Source: a virus
Length of the DNA stretch: 20,867 nt
IMG/VR virus record: IMGVR_UViG_3300037264_001061
Coordinates: 1-20,867 of that record
Direction: 5' to 3' (one strand)
Shown: positions 2,603 to 14,305 of the stretch, in pieces
How the letters are laid out: the number at the start of each line of letters is the position of its first letter
Position numbering within the stretch: position 1 is the first letter of the stretch
The notes under the pieces: model-generated
Databases searched by the model: none
The model's input: the letters and a program-made list of their open reading frames with translations, nothing else
What the model was told of the DNA's origin: nothing
Position numbers and translations under genes: made by a program

Positions 2603-4558
2603 ATGGGACTGTATGACATGCTGAAACCAGAGGCGAAGAACGCGGAACAACTGGTGAAATCTGCCCAGGAGTTTATGTTCCGGTTTGCGTCAGGGCTGAA
2701 GAAGAAAGAGGACGAAGACCGACCGGAGCCGGAACCGCGCAAGGGTATTTGGCGCTTTCTGAACACGGTTACGAACAAGAAACAACAGCGGACGTTTCAA
2801 CTCAACGCTGCTACGCTCAAGAGGCTGGCGAATAGCGACCCCGTTACGTGGTCAATTCGCCGAACCATCAAGTCCCTGGTCAACCAGGCAGAGTGGGACA
2901 TCGTGGTGGACACGGAGAAAACCGAGAACGAGTTGGACAGGTGGGAAGACCTGGCACTCTCCTACGTATCGCCGTATGCTGTGAAAACCGAGAGCGCAGT
3001 GGACTTCACGACCAAGCACGTTGAGCCGAAGCTGGCGAAGGAACTTAAGAGCAAGTTGAAAGAGATTTACGACTCCCCGTTGGCGGAGCCGGAGAAAAAG
3101 AAGGCAATTCGTTGGTGTTTCGAGTCAGCCACCCGTCAGGTAAAGGAAGTGGCGGAAGGACACAGGGAGCCGGTGAAGGCAATCCTTGAGAAGCCCACTA
3201 CGCGGGGTATCGAATCCAACTGGCGGATGCTGCAAGAGCGCGTGTTGGAAGACCTGCTCCTGTATGATGCGGGCGTGATTGTCAAGAACGACAACCACGA
3301 TGGCGAACTGGCAGAACTCTACACCCTTCCAGGGCACGAAATCCGGCTCTACCGGAACGAAGACCTGACCATTCCCCAAGCCCCCGAACCCGCCTACGTG
3401 TGGGAGGACAAGGGCGTAATCCGTGCCGAGTTTACGTGGGACGAACTGATTTACGTGATGCAGAACCCACAGGAGAACGGGTACGGTATGAGTCCGTTGG
3501 AGGCAGCTTCGCACGTCATTGTGGCGGGCATCTACGCGGACGAATACAACATTGACTACTTCAAGAACAGCAACGTGCCCCCAGGCGTTTTCAACTTGGG
3601 TGAGGATGTAACCGAAGACCAGCGGGCAATGTTCCGCCAGATGTGGGAACAGGAAGTCCGAGGGCGTGGTGGACTGCACCGCATGATGTTCATTAGCGGG
3701 AGCAAGAACCCAGACTTCATCCCGATGAAGATTCACTCCAACCGCGACATGCAGATGATGGACTACGTGAAGTGGACGACCGGAGTGAAGTGTATGGCAT
3801 ACGGACTCTCGCCACAAGACATTGGGCTGGTAATGGACTTCCACCGGACAACGGCGGAGGAACAGCAAATGCTCTCGCAAGCGCGGGGCATCAAGAATGT
3901 GCTGCACCTGCTCAAGTCGTACTACAACGATGAGATTGTCAAGAAGGAGTTTGAGTTCAACGATGTGGAGTTTGATTGGCAGAGCACGGACAATACGGAT
4001 GAGAAAAAGTCATCCGAGATTGACAGCGTGGACATTTCGCGGGGCGTAATTTCCCGTAACGAGCGCCGGAAGAAGCTCGGACTCAAGCCCGTGGATGGTG
4101 GGGACATCATCACAAGCGACTCGCAAATGAACCCCATTTCGACCCTCGAAAATGCACAGGAGATGGCAATGGGCGGAGCGACAGGGCAACCTGGTCAGCC
4201 CGGCCAACCTGGACAGCCAGGACAGCCTGGACAGGGTGGATTTGGAGGGCAGGGAGGGCAACCAGGCACCCCGCCAGGTGCCCCCCGCGTAGGAGGCGGA
4301 GGCCCCCCAGGAAGCCCCGTACAGGGGCAACCAGGCGCACCAGCCAAGCCGCCAGCAGGGGCGGGTGGGTTCCCAGGAGGCACGGAGCGGGAAGTAACCC
4401 CTATCAAGCTGGGGAGCAAGCCCGTGGTCAAACTCAGCATCAACCGCCGGAAGCCAATGGGGACGCAGAAAGAGGCGATGGACGGGGTAGTGAACGAATT
4501 GAAGACCAAAGGCGTAGACGCCGAAATCAGGATTGGCTTCGATGATTCGCAGGTGTAA
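2603..4558 (+). CDS. Phage portal protein, HK97-type, with collagen-like C-terminal tail
   Basis: The portal is the dodecameric ring at the capsid vertex through which DNA is packaged and ejected. The 651-residue product shows the HK97-type pattern: an N-terminal part with ANSDPVTWSIRRTIKSLVNQ near residues 74-95, a central stem region with YFKNSNVPPGVFNLG near 320-335, then DFIPMKIHSNRDMQMMDY and the GLSPQDIGLVMDFHRTTAEE segment, and a terminal SRGVISRNERRKKLGLKP segment. About 120 residues follow that ordinary portals of this class lack. Residues 524-593 are Gly/Pro/Gln-rich with five consecutive GQP triplets, and residues 594-651 return to a mixed sequence. AAAAGGAG lies just before the previous stop, and the ATG at 2603 directly follows that stop. 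Family assignment is secure; the role of the tail is unknown. Confidence 0.92.
   Translation: MGLYDMLKPEAKNAEQLVKSAQEFMFRFASGLKKKEDEDRPEPEPRKGIWRFLNTVTNKKQQRTFQLNAATLKRLANSDPVTWSIRRTIKSLVNQAEWDIVVDTEKTENELDRWEDLALSYVSPYAVKTESAVDFTTKHVEPKLAKELKSKLKEIYDSPLAEPEKKKAIRWCFESATRQVKEVAEGHREPVKAILEKPTTRGIESNWRMLQERVLEDLLLYDAGVIVKNDNHDGELAELYTLPGHEIRLYRNEDLTIPQAPEPAYVWEDKGVIRAEFTWDELIYVMQNPQENGYGMSPLEAASHVIVAGIYADEYNIDYFKNSNVPPGVFNLGEDVTEDQRAMFRQMWEQEVRGRGGLHRMMFISGSKNPDFIPMKIHSNRDMQMMDYVKWTTGVKCMAYGLSPQDIGLVMDFHRTTAEEQQMLSQARGIKNVLHLLKSYYNDEIVKKEFEFNDVEFDWQSTDNTDEKKSSEIDSVDISRGVISRNERRKKLGLKPVDGGDIITSDSQMNPISTLENAQEMAMGGATGQPGQPGQPGQPGQPGQGGFGGQGGQPGTPPGAPRVGGGGPPGSPVQGQPGAPAKPPAGAGGFPGGTEREVTPIKLGSKPVVKLSINRRKPMGTQKEAMDGVVNELKTKGVDAEIRIGFDDSQV
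4172..4380 (+). repeat. Collagen-like Gly-x-y coding repeat in the portal gene
   Basis: Nine-base units of the form GGN-CAR-CCN occur five times in a row from about 4184, coding GQP triplets. They are followed by irregular Gly/Pro-rich sequence to about residue 593 of the portal. Codons vary between units (CAA/CAG, CCT/CCC/CCA, GGG/GGT/GGC/GGA), so the run is not a fresh slippage product. Collagen-like segments are known in phage structural proteins, where they can form trimeric stalks; on a portal this would be unexpected, and the segment may simply be a flexible linker. Confidence 0.85.
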
Positions 4559-4996: not shown

Positions 4997-7472
4997 AGTA
5001 ACGTTCATCACCACGACACAGGACTACCCGTTAATTACCGAAATCGAGATGTTAGGTAATTACCTGGGTGGGATGCGAAAGCGTCTAGTGCCCGTGCGCG
5101 TGGGGAAGAAGGTGGACAAACTTATCGCCCGCTACGCCAAGCGGTTGAATCGTATTTGGAACCAATACCAAAAGGAACTGGTCAACACACTCAGCCTGGA
5201 AGGGCTGAAGAAACTCGCGCCGGAGAACGAGGTGGAGAAAGCAGACGCCCCGACTCTGGCGCAAGTGCTTTCCGAGACAGACCCGACCAGGCAGCAGGTA
5301 CTACACATGAAGTACCTGAAGGCTCGCCGAGAAAAGCTCATCAAGCCCAAGCTGGAACAGATGAAGCAGGAACTTCAGCGAGCCGCTAAGCCTATGTTTG
5401 AGTCCGCTTACTTGCTGGGCAAAGAGCGCGGGCAAATCCTCACGCAGCAGGAGATGGACGACGACCTGAACGACGAGGATGAGGAGCTTCTTGCCGAGAA
5501 GGAAGATACGAACGAGGAGTTTGTAGCTATCTTGGTGGCAGACACTTACGACGATTACGAGGAGGCGCTTGGGGGGGAGTACGAGACCGAAGCCGAACTG
5601 ATGGCAGGGCTTCGGGACGCGCACAAATCCCAGCAGACCAGGTTGGGTAGCTTTGCGGCTACGCTGGGGGCGGCGCTCCTTGCGGCGGGGATGTCCCAGG
5701 CAATCCGCGACATTCAGGAAGTGGATGCGGATGGTGAGCCGACCGGAGAAGTGAAGACCGACCCCGAAACCGGAGAACCGCTTGGGGAGGTAGTGGAGGG
5801 CGGCTACTGGCACACGCGGACTGACGAGCGGGTGTGTGAGGGATGTGAGGGGAACGATGGTGCATGGATGACCCTAGAGGACTTTCAGGAGGAAGCCAAC
5901 ACCAACGAATGTCTCTCCAACTGCCGGTGCATCGAACTCTTTGAACCGGCTCCTATGCCAACCGACCAGGGCGAAGTGTGGACGGGCACCCCAGGCATAG
6001 ATAAGATGGTGCAATTGTTTGACCTCATCAAACATTCGCCACACGGAATCTCAAAACACCTTCCAGGCAAGCATGACCAGGCGGAACATTCCCCCACAGG
6101 CGCACCCGCGAAGGAGAAACCTGCGGCAACTCCCACAACTGACGCGCCAACGGTGGCGGAGACCAAGCCCGCAGAATCAGGTTTCCTAAGCGAGGAACGA
6201 TTTAATCCCAGCTTTGTTCAATCCGCTAAGGCGGAGACAGAGAACGCGAAGAAATACCTCGAAGTGAAGGAGCCAATTTCCAGGGAGGCGATTGCCGAGG
6301 GATTCAACCGGCACCTTAACCGAGCTTTCGAGGAAAAGATTGCGAGCTATAGGGGAGTGGTAGCGAACAGGCGTGAAATCGTAAATCAAAGAACAGTGGC
6401 GTTGGCAGCGGATAAAGCCAAGCTAGAGACCGCCACTGACGAAAATCGCGGTCTCCTTGAGAGTGAGCTTCACTTCGCAGAGCAGAACCTAGCAGAGGAC
6501 AAAGTACGTCTCCGCAACTCAGAAAATACACTGACCTTCTTGGAGAGCGAAGTGGGGCGGGTAGGTGTCCAGGGAATTGTAGACAAAGCCATTGAGGAGC
6601 TTTCAAAAGCCAAAAGTATTGGAGAGCAGAAAGACTTGATGCGGCGTATACATCAAACTGCCGTCGCTGCGACAGGAAAGGCATGGCGAGCTAAGGGAGA
6701 GAAGGCGGAACTCCAACGGGAACTGACAGACACTTACTACAGTATTGTAAGAAATCGAAACGCCCAATTTCAAACCTACGAGGAAGATAGTCTCAAGGGG
6801 TACATGGAATCGCACAACGCTTCCATTATTCAAGCAACCAGTGAGGAAGGGGACGCCACCTATAAACATACCCGCCGCATGGTTGAGGGTGATGCAACGA
6901 AAACCATTCAAGGGCGACCTAATTTTAAGGAAGGGCGCGATTGGATTCTCAATAATTTTAACCCAGCGGTTCTTGCGAGTATGACTACTCCCGTGAAATG
7001 GGAAGCCAAGCGCGGTGCTGGTGGGGGACGTTCGTGGTACAGAAGCGCAGACCAGACGATTACCCTTGCCAGGGATGACCGACCAGGGACAATCCCGCAT
7101 GAGTTTGTCCATCATCTTGAGAGGCAAGTTCCTGAGATTTCCTCGTTCTTTGAGGACTACTACGCGCAGAGAACGGGCACGGAACAGCCCGTAAAAATGT
7201 CGAAGATTCGCGGGCATGGCGGGTACGAGTCTTACGAATATACGCGCCCCGACAAGTTTGCAGACGCATACATGGGGCACGTAAACATCATGGCATATGG
7301 GAGCGAAAATCGCCGTGGGGGAGAAATCTTTTCCCAGGCGGTTGCGATGCTCTCTACTCCCCAGGACGCTGCCCGACTCTACCGAAAAGACCCTGAGCTA
7401 TTTGGGATTACCATGTCTGTACTGAAGGGCAACGTCCCGCACCGAACCACCCACAGGGCGGTATCTGGCTAA
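4935..7472 (+). CDS. MuF-type head morphogenesis protein fused to HExxH metallopeptidase-like domain
   Basis: The product has 845 residues. The N-terminal 330 residues are the minor head protein part: a charged helical region, then W292-H-T-R-T-D-E-R-V-C301-E-G-C304 and C326-L-S-N-C330-R-C332, the conserved end of the SPP1 gp7/Mu gpF family, whose members sit by the portal and take part in capsid assembly. A linker (IDKMVQL at 355-361) leads to KHLPGKHDQAEHSPTG at 374-389. Residues 430-610 are charged and probably coiled coil. The C-terminal part has H722-E723-F-V-H726-H727 and a later GGEIFSQAVAML segment whose glutamate could be the third zinc ligand. MuF proteins with C-terminal toxin or enzyme domains are known from temperate phages, so this domain may be ejected cargo. 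AAAGGAAAG at 4917-4925 supports the start. Activity and target are unknown. Confidence 0.88.
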   Translation: MRVILDTPTPIEKLRKTYNDKVTFITTTQDYPLITEIEMLGNYLGGMRKRLVPVRVGKKVDKLIARYAKRLNRIWNQYQKELVNTLSLEGLKKLAPENEVEKADAPTLAQVLSETDPTRQQVLHMKYLKARREKLIKPKLEQMKQELQRAAKPMFESAYLLGKERGQILTQQEMDDDLNDEDEELLAEKEDTNEEFVAILVADTYDDYEEALGGEYETEAELMAGLRDAHKSQQTRLGSFAATLGAALLAAGMSQAIRDIQEVDADGEPTGEVKTDPETGEPLGEVVEGGYWHTRTDERVCEGCEGNDGAWMTLEDFQEEANTNECLSNCRCIELFEPAPMPTDQGEVWTGTPGIDKMVQLFDLIKHSPHGISKHLPGKHDQAEHSPTGAPAKEKPAATPTTDAPTVAETKPAESGFLSEERFNPSFVQSAKAETENAKKYLEVKEPISREAIAEGFNRHLNRAFEEKIASYRGVVANRREIVNQRTVALAADKAKLETATDENRGLLESELHFAEQNLAEDKVRLRNSENTLTFLESEVGRVGVQGIVDKAIEELSKAKSIGEQKDLMRRIHQTAVAATGKAWRAKGEKAELQRELTDTYYSIVRNRNAQFQTYEEDSLKGYMESHNASIIQATSEEGDATYKHTRRMVEGDATKTIQGRPNFKEGRDWILNNFNPAVLASMTTPVKWEAKRGAGGGRSWYRSADQTITLARDDRPGTIPHEFVHHLERQVPEISSFFEDYYAQRTGTEQPVKMSKIRGHGGYESYEYTRPDKFADAYMGHVNIMAYGSENRRGGEIFSQAVAMLSTPQDAARLYRKDPELFGITMSVLKGNVPHRTTHRAVSG
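6054..6107 (+). other. KHLPG-HDQ-H motif, copy 1
   Basis: Codes KHLPGKHDQAEHSPTG at residues 374-389 of the MuF protein, followed by Ala/Pro/Thr-rich linker. It separates the MuF domain from the coiled-coil and metallopeptidase-like part. Three histidines and an aspartate have the spacing H, H+6, D+7, H+11. Confidence 0.85.
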
Positions 7473-8599
7473 TGCGACTCAACCTCCTATTCGATAATGA
7501 AGTCGTCCTGGGTGCCGAGTTTACCGACCCCTTGCAGGGAGCGGTAGCTATTGTCTACGTAAACCCGTCCTTCGAGAACACGATAAAGCAGTGGCTTTCT
7601 GAGGAGCAGTTCATCCTCTCCCATGACGAGGAGACGGGCGGGTACGCCGGACGGACAAACGGATTAGACGACATTCGCGCATTTGAGCAGCGTGTTCTGG
7701 CGCTGGTGCATGAGATGGGAGATGGCTGGGACTACAAGGTAGTGGGCGACGACGTGGCGAAGCACCTTCCTGGGCAGCATGACCAACTTACCCACGCGAG
7801 CGGGAGTGTGGGTCGCCGACCAGAGGAAGCGGCAGGAAGACCGACCATCAAGCCGGACTACGAAACCATGCTCCGCAGTGCAATCTCCAAGCTGAGCACA
7901 GATGAGCAGCGGAAGATTCAGGATATTCGGGAGAAGTTGAAGACGACGCAGACTACGAAGCAGCAGTATTATGATGAGGCGACGAAGCAGTACACGCCGG
8001 AGCGCCAAGCTCTCCATGACAAGATTGCGGGGGCTATGCTGGCAGAGGGGATGACCCAGGAGCAGCCCACTATGATTCTGACGGGGGGACTCCCTGGCAG
8101 CGGCAAGTCGAGCATCACCAGCCAGAAGGACATCAGGGACTTCGTAAAGATTGACTCGGACGCTATCAAGGCACAATTGCCGGAGTACGACGGGTGGAAC
8201 GCGGCGCTGTTACAGAATGAGGCAGACGACATTATCAGCCGCGTCATGGTTCAGGCGGTGAAAGAACGGAAGAACGTATTGTTTGACGGAACCATGAAGG
8301 CGCAGCCGAAGTACAACGCTCTGGTTGACCGCTTCTCCGCGTTCAACTATAAAGTGGGAATCTGGTTTGCGGAGTTGCCGATGGAGAGCGCGATGGATAG
8401 GGTTATCTCCCGCTGGCGCGAGACGGGGAGGTTCGTTGACCCGACCTACGTAGCGACCCACAACGGACACAACAAAGAGACATTGGACAGAATCAAGGAC
8501 GAGGTAGATTTCTACGAGGTCTACGACTCGAACGTGCCATTTGGTGAGCCAGCTAAGTTGAAGGAGCGCGGACATGCCACAGCCGAAGCCCGAAGATAA
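7472..8599 (+). CDS. Zeta-toxin-like P-loop kinase with capsid-associated N-terminal part
   Basis: The product has 375 residues. Residues 206-213 form a perfect Walker A motif (GLPGSGKS), followed by KIDSDAIKAQLPEY with candidate catalytic D230. NEADDIISRV then precedes a VLFDGTMK strand near 265-275, and ISRWRETGRFVDPTYV near 310-325 supplies the conserved arginines. This is the zeta toxin/PezT pattern; family members phosphorylate UDP-N-acetylglucosamine or related sugar nucleotides and block wall synthesis. The first 96 residues are a separate unassigned domain ending in the motif KHLPGQHDQLTHASG (97-111). Start and previous stop overlap as TAATG. No epsilon-like antitoxin is adjacent. The gene lies in the structural operon, so delivery in the virion or assembly-time action is more likely than a classical plasmid-type toxin-antitoxin role. 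The actual substrate is not determined. Confidence 0.85.
   Translation: MRLNLLFDNEVVLGAEFTDPLQGAVAIVYVNPSFENTIKQWLSEEQFILSHDEETGGYAGRTNGLDDIRAFEQRVLALVHEMGDGWDYKVVGDDVAKHLPGQHDQLTHASGSVGRRPEEAAGRPTIKPDYETMLRSAISKLSTDEQRKIQDIREKLKTTQTTKQQYYDEATKQYTPERQALHDKIAGAMLAEGMTQEQPTMILTGGLPGSGKSSITSQKDIRDFVKIDSDAIKAQLPEYDGWNAALLQNEADDIISRVMVQAVKERKNVLFDGTMKAQPKYNALVDRFSAFNYKVGIWFAELPMESAMDRVISRWRETGRFVDPTYVATHNGHNKETLDRIKDEVDFYEVYDSNVPFGEPAKLKERGHATAEARR
7760..7804 (+). other. KHLPG-HDQ-H motif, copy 2
   Basis: Codes KHLPGQHDQLTHASG at residues 97-111 of the zeta-toxin-like protein, between its N-terminal domain and the kinase domain. Compared with copy 1 the codons for Pro, Gly and Gln differ although the residues are kept. 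Confidence 0.85.
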
Positions 8600-10443: not shown

Positions 10444-10872
10444 ATGAGCGGAGAAAGAACTTCGATTGACCCGAACAACCCGTTTGCGGGCAACGCTTTT
10501 GGCAATCCTGCTGCGCGAGAGGTACTTAGCGCACTCCCAGGCGCGATGGCTGGGCGGGGCGGCGCAACAGACTCGGCGGCCCCAGGAAAACACGTAACCC
10601 CTGACCAGATAGACATTTACACCATAATCAACAAGCTAGATGGGGACTTTGTTCGCGGATACCTACTGAAACTTGAGGAGGCAAAGACGCTCCTCAAGAC
10701 GTACCTCGACCGTTTGGGCGACTTTTCCAGGCGTCTTGAAAAAGGCGATGCGATAACCAGGAAGGTGCTGGGAGAGGACGCCCTGGTTGCCAAGATAGCG
10801 GTGCTTGAGGAGACCATTGCAAAACTCAACGCACACGAATTGGCGTCCCTTAAGCGGTTGAGGAATGAGTAA
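10444..10872 (+). CDS. Helical/coiled-coil hypothetical protein
   Basis: From the preferred ATG the product has 142 residues. The first 50 are Asn/Pro/Gly/Ala-rich and probably disordered. From about residue 55 on it is helical with a heptad-like pattern (YLLKLEEAKTLLKTYLDRLG, then KIAVLEETIAKL). An in-frame ATG at 10423 would add seven residues, but its only upstream purine run ends 1 base before it. The GGAGG at 10426-10430 serves the ATG at 10444, so I choose the latter. The end overlaps the next gene by 8 bases, implying coupled translation. A scaffold-like or membrane-complex partner is possible; no family recognised. Confidence 0.7.
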   Translation: MSGERTSIDPNNPFAGNAFGNPAAREVLSALPGAMAGRGGATDSAAPGKHVTPDQIDIYTIINKLDGDFVRGYLLKLEEAKTLLKTYLDRLGDFSRRLEKGDAITRKVLGEDALVAKIAVLEETIAKLNAHELASLKRLRNE

Positions 10873-11434
10873 CGAACCGTTCTCTTTCAAAAAGTTTGTC
10901 GGCGGGTTGAATCCCGTTGACCCCGTGGGTTGGGCTAAATCCATTTCACTCACCCTCCGGTCAGCCATTCTCATAGGGCTAATCCTCGCGGGCTACGGCT
11001 ACTACCGAGGATACAAAAACCGCCCCGTCCAAGTGGACTTAAAAGATGGCACCGTGATTGAGTTGGTGAATGGGGATAACAAAACTCACAAACTCGAAGC
11101 AAAAAGGGGCAAGCTATATTTCGATGGGCAGCTTGTCCGCACGAAAGACGTGAAGGGCCTCAAGCCTTATGGCGTGGAGCTTCATCCCAAATTGATTGCG
11201 GGCGTAACTACTTCAGGAAACGCCGCTGCGGGACTTGGACTTGAGGTCGCCCATTTTCAAAAATTGAATCTGGACTTGCTGGCGTTGTACAAGTTCCTGG
11301 GCGTTGGCGTGTCTTATGACATCCAACTGGAAAAGCCCGTGGTGATTGACAACACCAGTATCGGTATTGGCATTGGGCGCGACTTCGAGACCAATGAGAA
11401 CGCCGCAATCATGTATATGGGGATTGAGTTCTAA
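10865..11434 (+). CDS. Membrane-anchored hypothetical protein with beta-rich C-terminal part
   Basis: The product has 189 residues. One hydrophobic segment at about 31-48 (RSAILIGLILAGYGYY) with a basic residue ahead of it should act as a signal anchor. Beyond it come a beta-prone stretch (PVQVDLKDGTVIELVNG) and then, from residue 115 to the end, alternating strands rich in Gly (AAAGLGLEVAHF, FLGVGVSYDIQL, SIGIGIGRDF) finishing on Phe. This alternation and terminal Phe resemble outer-membrane hairpins, but the segment is too short to claim a barrel. It overlaps the coiled-coil gene by 8 bases, so the two may work together at the cell envelope. GAGG precedes the ATG. Not recognised as a known family. 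Confidence 0.7.
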   Translation: MSNEPFSFKKFVGGLNPVDPVGWAKSISLTLRSAILIGLILAGYGYYRGYKNRPVQVDLKDGTVIELVNGDNKTHKLEAKRGKLYFDGQLVRTKDVKGLKPYGVELHPKLIAGVTTSGNAAAGLGLEVAHFQKLNLDLLALYKFLGVGVSYDIQLEKPVVIDNTSIGIGIGRDFETNENAAIMYMGIEF

Positions 11435-11440
11435 GGAGGA
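11433..11440 (+). promoter_or_regulatory. Ribosome-binding site deciding the protease start
   Basis: AAGGAGGA is a near-perfect Shine-Dalgarno sequence. It lies 11 bases before the ATG at 11452 but only 2 bases before the in-frame TTG at 11443, so the ATG is the better start. Confidence 0.7.
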
Positions 11441-11451
11441 CTTTGTGCCAA

Positions 11452-13245
11452 ATGGCAGACATGCTACGATTTTTTGTTCCCATCGAAAAAGTGGATAAGG
11501 AAGCCCGTACCGTATCAGGATGGGCGACCACTGAAACCATTGATAAGCAGGGCGAGATTGTGGACTACGGCGCATCAAAGGCGGCGTTCGCCGAGTGGCG
11601 CGGCAACATCCGCGAGATGCACGAACCAAAAGCTGTTGGCAAGTCCCTCGAAGCCCTCGCCGACGACAAAGAGCGGAAGGTTTACGTAAAGGCGCACATT
11701 TCCAAAGGCGCAGAAGATACCTGGCAGAAGTGCCTGGACGGTACACTGACAGGTTTTTCCATTGGTGGGCAAACCATTGATAAGATGGTGCAGCTTGTGA
11801 AGGACGCAGAGACCAAAGCGGCTCGCACCGTTACACGGATTACGAAGTACCGGCTTAATGAGTTATCGCTTGTGGACAACCCCGCGAACCCTGACGCGCA
11901 GTTCCAGTTGGTCAAGATGGATACCGCAACGGGAACGCTCCACCAGACGGCGGTTGTGGAAGACTCCAAGAAGATTGTGATGACGGAGGCACAAGACCAT
12001 TTGGGTGAGGAAGTTCGGGAGCATCGAGAAAAGGCAGATGGACTTGCAAAGAAAGTGCTGACCGAGCAGGACATATCAAACCTGCCCGATGACGATTTTG
12101 GTGTGGTTCGACGGTATAGTTCTCCACAAGGAACAGCAGTTAAGGAACGGCTATTTGCAATGCCGGACAAAGTTCACGCATTTTCAGCGTTGAAGAAAGT
12201 TGTGGGGTATCCATTGTCCGACGAGGAACGTGAGGAAGTTCACAAGAAAGCAGCAGGGATTTTAGGTACGTCCCATAAGCAGGACGAATGTACGCTATGC
12301 AAAACGCATATCGAAAAGGAAGGTGAAAATACCAAAATGGAGCAAAAGCAACTTGAGGAACTACTGAACAAGGTTGCCGCTCTGGTGCAGCAAGTTGAAA
12401 CGGTCATCAAGGCGTGGGAAGGTGCCCATGCTCCTGTTGCGGGCGCGAAGGCGACTCCGGCAGAGTCGGGTGCAAATCCGACCAGTGCTCCGGCAGTTAG
12501 TCCGTCCGCCCCTGAAAAGACAGGTGCAGCCGATGGCGTCCAGGCGCAAGACCCGAAGGGCGCGTATCCAGCGGAAGGCCCCGTGAAGACGGCAGATGGC
12601 AGTCCTACCGAGAAGGCGGACATGTCAAAGCCCGATTCAGCAGGTGTCCAGACGCAGGAGACTCCGGCAGTTCCGGCAGTAGCCGGTAGCCCCTCTGGTG
12701 AAGTGAAAGCCAAAGATGGCGAAGGCACAGCATCAAGCCCAGCGAAGGCTGGCGACCCAGGCGACGGTAGTGTGCAGACGCAAGACCCCGCTGGCTCATA
12801 CCCAGCAGCAGGGCCAGTGAAAGCGGCTGGCGTAGTGGCAGTTACGGAGGATGGGGAGGAAGACAAGGACAAGGATAAGAAACCCATGCCCGCCGCACTC
12901 GCAGCAGCTACCGAGAAGACCGACAAACCAGGCGACATCCAGAAGACCGAAGGCACAGATAACGACATGCAGAAGCAAGTTGACTCGCTGAGGAAGCAAG
13001 TCGAAGAACTCAGGAAGCAGCCCAAACCCCGAAAGCACTTGGTTGAGAAAACCTACGGTGCTGGCGAGGAAGGAAACTCCGAAGACGCAGAGAAAGAAGC
13101 TGCGGAGATTCAGAAGGCTTACGACGAGACGATGACGCTTGTTAAAAGCGGTAAGCCTCTCACCCGCGAGCAGGAAGCTCGGCGTTCATGGGTTGTAAAC
13201 AAGATGTTGGAAGGCAAGGTAGGAGACATTCGGAAGATTCAGTAA
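11452..13245 (+). CDS. Prohead protease (His/Ser, XkdF/HK97-type) fused to scaffold-like region
   Basis: From the ATG the product has 597 residues. Residues 1-150 are the protease: VSGWATTETIDKQGEIVDY, candidate catalytic H57 in REMHEPKAVG and S103 in LTGFSIGG, ending in LNELSLVDNPANP. Such enzymes cut scaffold and capsid proteins during prohead maturation. Residues 195-275 (LTEQDISNLPDDDFGVVRR, FAMPDKVHAFSALKKV) form a second small domain, tentatively DUF6582-like, followed by a CTLC pair. From residue 296 the sequence changes to a coiled coil, then an Ala/Pro/Gly-rich region with three copies of a VQ[AT]Q[DE] repeat (from 363, 399 and 441), and a final coiled coil (MQKQVDSLRKQVEELRKQ). This is a scaffold-like composition. 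The gene precedes the capsid gene, the usual place. AAGGAGGA at 11433-11440 supports the start. Confidence 0.88.
   Translation: MADMLRFFVPIEKVDKEARTVSGWATTETIDKQGEIVDYGASKAAFAEWRGNIREMHEPKAVGKSLEALADDKERKVYVKAHISKGAEDTWQKCLDGTLTGFSIGGQTIDKMVQLVKDAETKAARTVTRITKYRLNELSLVDNPANPDAQFQLVKMDTATGTLHQTAVVEDSKKIVMTEAQDHLGEEVREHREKADGLAKKVLTEQDISNLPDDDFGVVRRYSSPQGTAVKERLFAMPDKVHAFSALKKVVGYPLSDEEREEVHKKAAGILGTSHKQDECTLCKTHIEKEGENTKMEQKQLEELLNKVAALVQQVETVIKAWEGAHAPVAGAKATPAESGANPTSAPAVSPSAPEKTGAADGVQAQDPKGAYPAEGPVKTADGSPTEKADMSKPDSAGVQTQETPAVPAVAGSPSGEVKAKDGEGTASSPAKAGDPGDGSVQTQDPAGSYPAAGPVKAAGVVAVTEDGEEDKDKDKKPMPAALAAATEKTDKPGDIQKTEGTDNDMQKQVDSLRKQVEELRKQPKPRKHLVEKTYGAGEEGNSEDAEKEAAEIQKAYDETMTLVKSGKPLTREQEARRSWVVNKMLEGKVGDIRKIQ
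12337..13245 (+). CDS. Possible nested scaffold protein from an in-frame internal start
   Basis: An ATG at 12337, in frame with the protease gene, opens a 302-residue product beginning MEQKQLEELLNKVAALVQQV. AAGGAAGGTGA lies at 12316-12326, close to a full Shine-Dalgarno sequence with one extra base, about 10 bases upstream. The preceding residues (EKEGENTK) read like translated leader. The start falls exactly where protease-type sequence gives way to scaffold-like sequence. Nested scaffolds made this way are established for lambda (C/Nu3). Whether this start is used cannot be told from sequence. Confidence 0.4.
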   Translation: MEQKQLEELLNKVAALVQQVETVIKAWEGAHAPVAGAKATPAESGANPTSAPAVSPSAPEKTGAADGVQAQDPKGAYPAEGPVKTADGSPTEKADMSKPDSAGVQTQETPAVPAVAGSPSGEVKAKDGEGTASSPAKAGDPGDGSVQTQDPAGSYPAAGPVKAAGVVAVTEDGEEDKDKDKKPMPAALAAATEKTDKPGDIQKTEGTDNDMQKQVDSLRKQVEELRKQPKPRKHLVEKTYGAGEEGNSEDAEKEAAEIQKAYDETMTLVKSGKPLTREQEARRSWVVNKMLEGKVGDIRKIQ

Positions 13246-13312: not shown

Positions 13313-14305
13313 ATGAGTAACGCACAGTTAATCGAAAATGCCCTTCAGGACTTGCAGAAGGCCATTACGGAAACGGCTGTGTCAGGATTGCTGCTCGTTC
13401 GTGAGGACTTACAGGCCGAGATGGCTGTCATGGCTCCCACGGACACTCCGATGCGGAACCGGCTCAACCGGATTCAAGGCAACGGTAAGGCACACTCCTG
13501 GTACAAACTGATTCCGACTTCGCAACCGGAAGGTTTGTTCTTGGGTACGCCTCCATCGGCGGGCTTTTTCGCTAATGGTGGTCTGCCTACGGCTACAACT
13601 CCGTCCTACAAGCATGTGTCGGCTCCGTATGCTTCACTCGGCGACCTTGCGACGGTCAGCTTTTTTGACCAAATGGCGGGGGGTACGTACACCGACATCA
13701 AAAAGCACCAGTTGAAGGTTAAGATGCTCAACGTTGCTCTGATGGAAGAATGGGCCATTATCAACGGGGATTCAGGCGCTAACCCGTTGGCGTTCGATGG
13801 ACTCCGTGTTCAGATTACCACGAACACGAAGGACAACGCGAACGCGCCCCTCGCTCTTGCTGACCTCGGTTCCATTATGCACACGATTGTCAACAAGGGT
13901 GGGAAGCCCCAGGCGGTTGTCTGTAGTTACCGCGAAGCCCAGCGGATTTCGGAGTTGGTGCTTTCAGGTTTCTACCGATTGGTTCAGGCGGGCGCTGGCT
14001 CCCTGGCGGACATCTCCGCTGGTGTGTCAGTTACCAAGTGGACTAACGCCTTCGGTGTCGTGGACATCATCGGGTCTCGTTACATCGTCCCGACGGGTGC
14101 TCCGGCTGTGGCTGATGTGTTGGTGATTGATGACGTTTCCGTGCTCGAAGATGGGAACGCCGTCCAGATGGTTGACTTGATGCCGCTGAGTGCAGTTGAC
14201 TTGGCGCTCCTTCAGTCTGCCTACCGGACTCTGGTGGCTGAGTTCACCGTGCTTCAGATGACGGCAGAAGCCTTCCAGGGCAAAATCATCAACGTTGGGC
14301 CATAA
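13313..14305 (+). CDS. Major capsid protein, HK97-fold
   Basis: The product has 330 residues. After a short helical N-terminus come an N-arm/E-loop-like part (RNRLNRIQGNGKAHSWYKLI), a central LMEEWAIINGDSGANPLAFDGLR segment, the A-domain-like part SIMHTIVNKGGKPQAVVCSYREAQRISELV, and a C-terminal PTGAPAVADVLVIDD and LVAEFTVLQMTAEAFQGKI. The INGD...FDGL and 'vviDD' patterns are typical of HK97-fold capsid proteins, probably the SU10/DUF5309-like group. Hundreds of copies would form the icosahedral shell. There is no protease-domain fusion and no long delta domain, consistent with the separate scaffold-like region in the upstream gene. A strong hairpin follows at 14340. Assignment rests on pattern, position and length. 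Confidence 0.88.
   Translation: MSNAQLIENALQDLQKAITETAVSGLLLVREDLQAEMAVMAPTDTPMRNRLNRIQGNGKAHSWYKLIPTSQPEGLFLGTPPSAGFFANGGLPTATTPSYKHVSAPYASLGDLATVSFFDQMAGGTYTDIKKHQLKVKMLNVALMEEWAIINGDSGANPLAFDGLRVQITTNTKDNANAPLALADLGSIMHTIVNKGGKPQAVVCSYREAQRISELVLSGFYRLVQAGAGSLADISAGVSVTKWTNAFGVVDIIGSRYIVPTGAPAVADVLVIDDVSVLEDGNAVQMVDLMPLSAVDLALLQSAYRTLVAEFTVLQMTAEAFQGKIINVGP

Follow-up and report, generated by a model that had tools for sequence, protein, structure and literature searches.

In phage lambda, the scaffold Nu3 is encoded by the in-frame 3' part of the protease gene C and has its own start, and the C-terminal part is common to both products. Lambda C is an S49, ClpP-like protease. The gpO protein of P2 cleaves itself, and Shine-Dalgarno (SD)-like sites lying inside genes can be bound by ribosomes. 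The accessible part of PMC8508860 describes the protease and scaffold of P2 and lambda as encoded by a single gene, and that of PMC10275583 lists the lambda scaffold as an independent protein. For Mu, the accessible part of PMC4378225 places an in-frame scaffold start within the protease gene, and it reports for gene 27 of the Pseudomonas Mu-like phage PaMx73 a proposed internal start at Val177, with the SD ACGAGGA and a 9-nt spacer. Here, we describe a fused head maturation protease-scaffold gene at positions 11452 to 13245 of the virus record IMGVR_UViG_3300037264_001061 (20,867 bases, all of which were analysed and are referred to as the window), with a predicted internal start for the scaffold part.

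Like Mu and phages of the lambda C/Nu3 kind, the window has a protease joined to a scaffold-like part in a single open frame that precedes the capsid gene, and it shares with them an SD-led in-frame start at the joint between the two parts that is conserved in relatives. The likeness to Mu and PaMx73 is one of gene arrangement; the window-type genes have their matches in PHROG 9427 and in the fold of T4 gp21, and they precede a capsid gene of the SU10 type. With lambda, the nested in-frame scaffold arrangement proposed for the window is the same, whereas the proteases differ, being S49 / ClpP-like in lambda and S78 with a T4 gp21 fold here. The window protease was also considered as a member of the lambda C family; among Pfam matches at E up to 1, S78 was listed and S78_2 fell below its cut-off, with no S49. 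The comparison with lambda C/Nu3 drawn by the first-pass annotation, made from the sequence of the window, applies to the expression strategy and not to the kind of protease, which is of the S78 / T4 gp21 kind.

The gene very probably gives two products, a protease-scaffold fusion and a free scaffold made from the internal start. The dual-start idea, put forward in the first-pass annotation, is well supported by sequence comparison where the family as a whole is concerned; in the window itself it is probable. The relevant features are as follows.

11433..11439, + strand: Shine-Dalgarno AAGGAGG for the full-length protease-scaffold gene, with a 12-nt spacer before ATG 11452 (sequence).
11452..13245, + strand: fused head maturation protease-scaffold gene, 597 amino acids (PHROG 9427, E 6.3e-44; Pfam S78, E 5.7e-05).
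11464..11982, + strand: protease part as delimited by the PHROG 9427 match, residues 8-180 with TTG 11443 as residue 1 (E 6.3e-44; Foldseek best match T4 gp21, 5jbl).
11998..12273, + strand: mid-domain, model residues 183-274 (AlphaFold2 model and alignment; missing from two relatives, L004 and L005).
12316..12326, + strand: internal Shine-Dalgarno AAGGAAGGTGA (sequence; position conserved in relatives).
12337..12339, + strand: internal ATG, residue 296 of 597 (sequence; low-confidence linker 291-295 directly before it).
12337..13245, + strand: predicted separate scaffold, 302 amino acids, in frame with the protease (internal starts of relatives; modeled as helix, disorder and helices).
12949..13221, + strand: scaffold C-terminal helices, model residues 500-590 (model and alignment).
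13313..14305, + strand: major capsid protein gene of the SU10 type, next downstream (Pfam SU10_MCP, E 8.2e-15).

The open reading frame begins at TTG 11443 and runs to 13245, and ATG 11452, with AAGGAGG upstream, is the more likely start of the full-length product. The S78 match scores 23.7 bits against a cut-off of 21. Residues H57 and S103 are invariant across 16 aligned protease sequences, and we take them to be the conserved, presumably catalytic, His and Ser of the S78 / T4 gp21-like kind. In Foldseek, T4 prohead protease gp21 ranks first among solved structures (5jbl; E 1.8e-4, TMt 0.57). An AlphaFold2 model built on 16 relatives, trustworthy in its local parts alone (mean pLDDT 62, pTM 0.28), shows a beta-rich protease domain at about residues 4-141, the mid-domain at 183-274, and a helix at 281-325 that spans the low-confidence linker at 291-295. 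This is followed by disorder at 326-500 and helices at 500-590. No scaffold family in Pfam or PHROG matches window positions 12337-13242 at E up to 1; the C-terminal part of the homologous protein of the cultured phage Yaboi gives a weak match to the head scaffolding protein phrog_73 (E 6e-4). A scaffold role for the C-terminal half in the window would fit the predicted helices and disorder and the location of this half ahead of the capsid gene.

As the first-pass annotation had stated, AAGGAAGGTGA stands at 12316-12326 upstream of the in-frame ATG 12337, at which MEQKQL begins, and the residues that precede it read KEGENTK, including the reported GENTK. The site had further been placed exactly at the change from protease to scaffold sequence. 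Its position at the joint stands; it does not directly follow the end of the protease, as the mid-domain (183-274) intervenes. Two relatives that have no mid-domain (L004 and L005) keep the SD and ATG, and there the site directly follows the protease. In the phage THSA-485A (L146), a stretch resembling the mid-domain of the window (the PDKVHA region) was seen before the internal start.

To collect relatives, we used the capsid protein, a capsid alignment, and a protease alignment as baits in viral contigs. Of 547 relatives confirmed in the protease scan, the best 80 were kept, and the collection is therefore a sample. The capsid protein proved more effective as bait than the full protease-scaffold protein, whose close-relative search returned two distant loci only, and a profile search of genome contigs based on the protease alignment yielded no relatives. 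In each of the 87 distinct homologous genes, including that of the window, the reading frame continues without a stop beyond the protease into a long C-terminal region, five of the genes being cut by a contig end. Complete genes numbered 86, of which 82 came from contigs including the window and 4 from isolates, and clustering at 60% identity x coverage reduced them to 39 representatives.

The proposed conservation of the internal start was borne out in these relatives. By our reading of the tabulated starts, in which the joint labels were not assigned blind (nor were those of the codon sites below), 28 of the 39 representatives have their top-ranking in-frame internal start, taken over the entire gene, at the joint with dG <= -10, and a weaker joint start is present in seven (NiceHouse, L041, L042, L046, L061, L002, and L033). 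Of all in-frame internal starts in the protease-scaffold representatives, 39/731 reach this level. Control genes from the same loci gave 2/576 for portal (51 genes), 4/562 for capsid (26 genes), and 0/107 for connector (9 genes), and the other two frames of the representatives gave 29/2017 and 4/210. When the strongest SD-like 9-mer was picked blind to start codons, an in-frame ATG or GTG followed at the right distance in 27/39 genes, with 5.5 expected (binomial P 9e-15, indicative only); one of these 27 matches (L111) lies off the joint.

What is conserved at the joint is DNA, not protein sequence. The residues there vary (KEE, KEV, KEG, KGG, EGG, RGG), and the DNA in the nine nearest relatives reads, for example, GGA GGT GAA AGT AAC GAT ATG (L004), AGA GGA GGT ACA AAT ATG (L010), and CGA GGA GGG AAT AAC GTG (L016). 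At sites of the form GG-x(1-4)-M/V, the first Gly is encoded by GGA or GGG in 21/21 cases at the joint and in 0/13 elsewhere, these codons making up 37% of all Gly codons. Joint sites whose pattern ends in Val use GTG in 8/10 cases, and the other two (L030 and L057) have a start codon one residue later; GTG accounts for 12% of all Val codons. Of the 30 representatives analysed that have a start at the joint, 24 read the SD as GGA GGN or an equivalent and 6 as AAG GAG G. On the protease tree, from which 9 of the 39 were left out, namely five with a weaker start (L042, L046, L061, L002, and L033) and four with none (L044, L047, L056, and L111), the codon frame of the SD changes three times, at least two of these changes being forced by well-supported branches, and ATG and GTG exchange six times, at least four being forced.

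The spacer from the end of GGAGG, or its equivalent, to the start ranges from 4 to 13 nt across representatives. That of the window is 13 nt, as in L020 (the same gene as in L004), L048, L043, and L049. Counted from the pairing 7-mer, it is 10 nt, and several other gene starts in the window have spacers of 10-14 nt, including the capsid gene, whose own SD-like AAGGAGA ends 14 nt upstream of its ATG. RNA folding of six start regions revealed no notable structure.

Cultured isolates provide a further set. The joint site is present in Yaboi (GTG), Jay2Jay (ATG), Gilson (GTG), and NiceHouse (ATG). Eleven further isolates were fetched after the rule had been set, some of them congeneric with each other or with earlier ones and hence not fully independent, and the strongest in-frame start lies at the joint in 9/11: Trina, Peregrin, Weasels2, Muntaha, Tomas, Annadreamy, Emma1919, Paradiddles, and THSA-485A. 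THSA-485A has a second strong internal site at codon 162, and in Dorin the joint start ranks second. In actinophages (Stanwilliamsviridae, Trinavirus, Weaselvirus, and Rhodococcus phage Dorin), the head maturation protease is encoded by the same fused gene as in the window, and in 12/13 isolates no in-frame internal start is stronger than the one at the joint; the exception is Dorin, where it ranks second. In 13/13, the annotation names a protease only, followed directly by a capsid gene or a virion structural gene and without an intervening scaffold.

Several observations weigh against an internal start. In the window, the best in-frame SD energy is -11.4 against a mean of -10.0 after synonymous shuffling (p = 0.33, 60 shuffles), and the SD is interrupted and rather distant from the ATG. 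The window is also among the 12 misses of the start-blind test, the strongest SD-like 9-mer of the scanned part of its gene lying elsewhere. Across the family, 30/87 genes reach p <= 0.05 by themselves in the synonymous-shuffle test, four of the 39 representatives (L044, L047, L056, and L111) and the isolate Polewnik have no joint start, and P values overstate independence because the representatives are related. The shuffle null is conservative because it keeps the residues that spell the SD, and few genes are significant because the encoded residues themselves supply much of it. The site in the window alone is not beyond chance, and the case therefore rests on the relatives.

According to the dual-start reading, ribosomes beginning at ATG 11452 would make the 597-residue protein of protease, mid-domain, and scaffold, and those beginning at ATG 12337, guided by the SD at 12316-12326, would make the 302-residue scaffold alone. 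The free scaffold, likely to be made in greater amount than the fusion, would direct assembly of the SU10-type capsid protein encoded downstream. Through the scaffold tail shared by both products, the tethered protease would be brought into the procapsid and would later remove the scaffold there. We infer the use of the internal start, the relative amounts, and the roles of both products.

Three other explanations were weighed. The gene might yield the full-length fusion only, its own protease cutting near the joint to free the scaffold, and the conserved residues would then be a cleavage or linker motif. This fits a protein that the model presents as a protease beside a flexible, low-confidence linker, and the self-cleavage of P2 gpO is a precedent. 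P2 and lambda also have protease and scaffold in a single gene, as described in the accessible part of PMC8508860. Against it, conservation at the joint is of DNA: the residues differ, the SD shifts its codon frame, and the first residue is M or V, as ATG and GTG encode. The Gly codons are compatible with an SD in all 21 of 21 joint sites. We consider cleavage in place of an internal start unlikely and set the motif reading aside on this codon evidence, that is, Gly codon choice, SD frame, and ATG/GTG exchange.

It is very improbable that the SD-like sequence and ATG are a functionless product of chance or a codon-usage by-product of a linker rich in Lys, Glu, and Gly. The shuffle result for the window (p = 0.33) and the lack of significance in most single genes would agree with such an origin, but position, start codon, and SD recur in 35/39 representatives (28 strong, 7 weaker) and in 9/11 later isolates, and the portal and capsid genes do not have such sites. 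Still less credible is a different purpose for the internal site, such as a ribosome pause aiding folding of the protease before the scaffold is synthesized. Although the binding of ribosomes to SD-like sites within genes would allow it, a pause needs no start codon, and an in-frame ATG or GTG follows the strongest SD in 27/39 genes against the 5.5 expected.

An internal scaffold start is likely the rule across the PHROG 9427-type protease clade, which comprises environmental phages with SU10-type capsids, Stanwilliamsviridae, Rhodococcus phages, and a Thermoanaerobacterium phage. All of its members would then have an unannotated scaffold, with the strength and spacing of the site setting the ratio of protease to scaffold. 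This would supply a scaffold for a whole phage group annotated with a protease and a capsid gene only, and the cultured actinophages are systems in which the predicted internal start is testable. We predict from these comparisons that the gene in the window represents a new and widespread case of an arrangement already known, here in a different, T4 gp21-like protease family. No internal start of this kind appears in the accessible parts of PMC10945586, PMC12749128, and PMC7302621, and a literature search covering largely papers outside subscription found no published report of a nested protease and scaffold for the PHROG 9427-type family. Nested protease/scaffold genes would thereby extend to a protease clade for which we found no earlier report.

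The check proposed for the fusion, a search for relatives in which protease and scaffold are split at this point, found such genes in Herelleviridae. In all seven sampled members (phiSA012, BtpYZU04, SPO1, EF24C, LMTA-148, Lpa804, and BSP21), protease, scaffold-like, and capsid genes are separate and consecutive, and their order, as in SPO1 gp3.2/gp3.3 and Kayvirus ORF70/71, is that of the window. The phiSA012 protease is related to that of the window, matching phrog_9427 with E 6e-5. Herelleviridae differ in having a stop between the genes, with gaps of -17 to +22 nt, another frame in 5/7, and no fusion product. SPO1 gp3.3, annotated as a putative head scaffolding protein, has a 1-nt overlap with the protease gene; its counterparts in the other six are annotated as hypothetical. 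Where the genes overlap, the SD of the scaffold gene lies inside the end of the protease gene. In the Brochothrix phage BtpYZU04 (L129:4444-4460), the start of the scaffold-like gene lies 17 nt within the protease gene and in a different frame, and this overlap looks like an intermediate between the split and fused forms.

The disordered scaffold parts were compared with the Herelleviridae scaffolds by PHROG scans only. ORF71 of phiSA012 and ORF6 of the Brochothrix phage align with the rear portion of phrog_1028 (E 0.055 and 3.4e-4, respectively), which hints that phrog_1028 may include fused members. In the T5-like Vibrio phage phi 3, the protease gene directly precedes the capsid gene, with no scaffold gene. 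On the protease tree, which is unrooted and carries a long-branch warning, the split group forms one clade (100/100), and the labels fused, split, and T5 need two changes, the minimum. Being unrooted, the tree is compatible with the earlier suggestion of a gene fusion that kept the old start and does not tell fusion from fission. Herelleviridae and their fused relatives form a natural pair for studying the fusion or fission of assembly genes.

In three relatives, the capsid gene seems to be interrupted near codon 26-38 (L015:4166-5229, L009:4219-4917, and L008:138-863). An open reading frame with a LAGLIDADG-like motif precedes the seemingly interrupted capsid gene in each. L015 has a group I intron match at 5028-5229 (Rfam RF00028, 65.9 bits), and L008 and L009 have none at the Rfam gathering threshold.

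The head cassette of the window consists of the portal gene, a set of large accessory open reading frames, the protease-scaffold gene, and the SU10-type capsid gene, with the portal gene at the following position.

2603-4558: portal gene in the head cassette.

Between the portal and protease genes, the open reading frame at 7472-8599 has a Zeta-toxin-type kinase domain (Pfam E 2e-22). A conserved open reading frame of about 189 amino acids, with no assigned family, lies directly upstream of the protease gene in the window (10865-11434) and in three relatives (L004:2719-3288, L007:2286-2852, and L009:1618-2205). In the same portal-protease interval, a KHLPGxHDQxxH-like motif (e.g. SKHLPGKHDQAEHSPTGAPA) occurs four times in three consecutive open reading frames on the + strand, starting at 6054, 7760, 8718, and 9525. 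None was seen in the forward frames of the other collected loci. The motif is possibly a packaging or cleavage tag.
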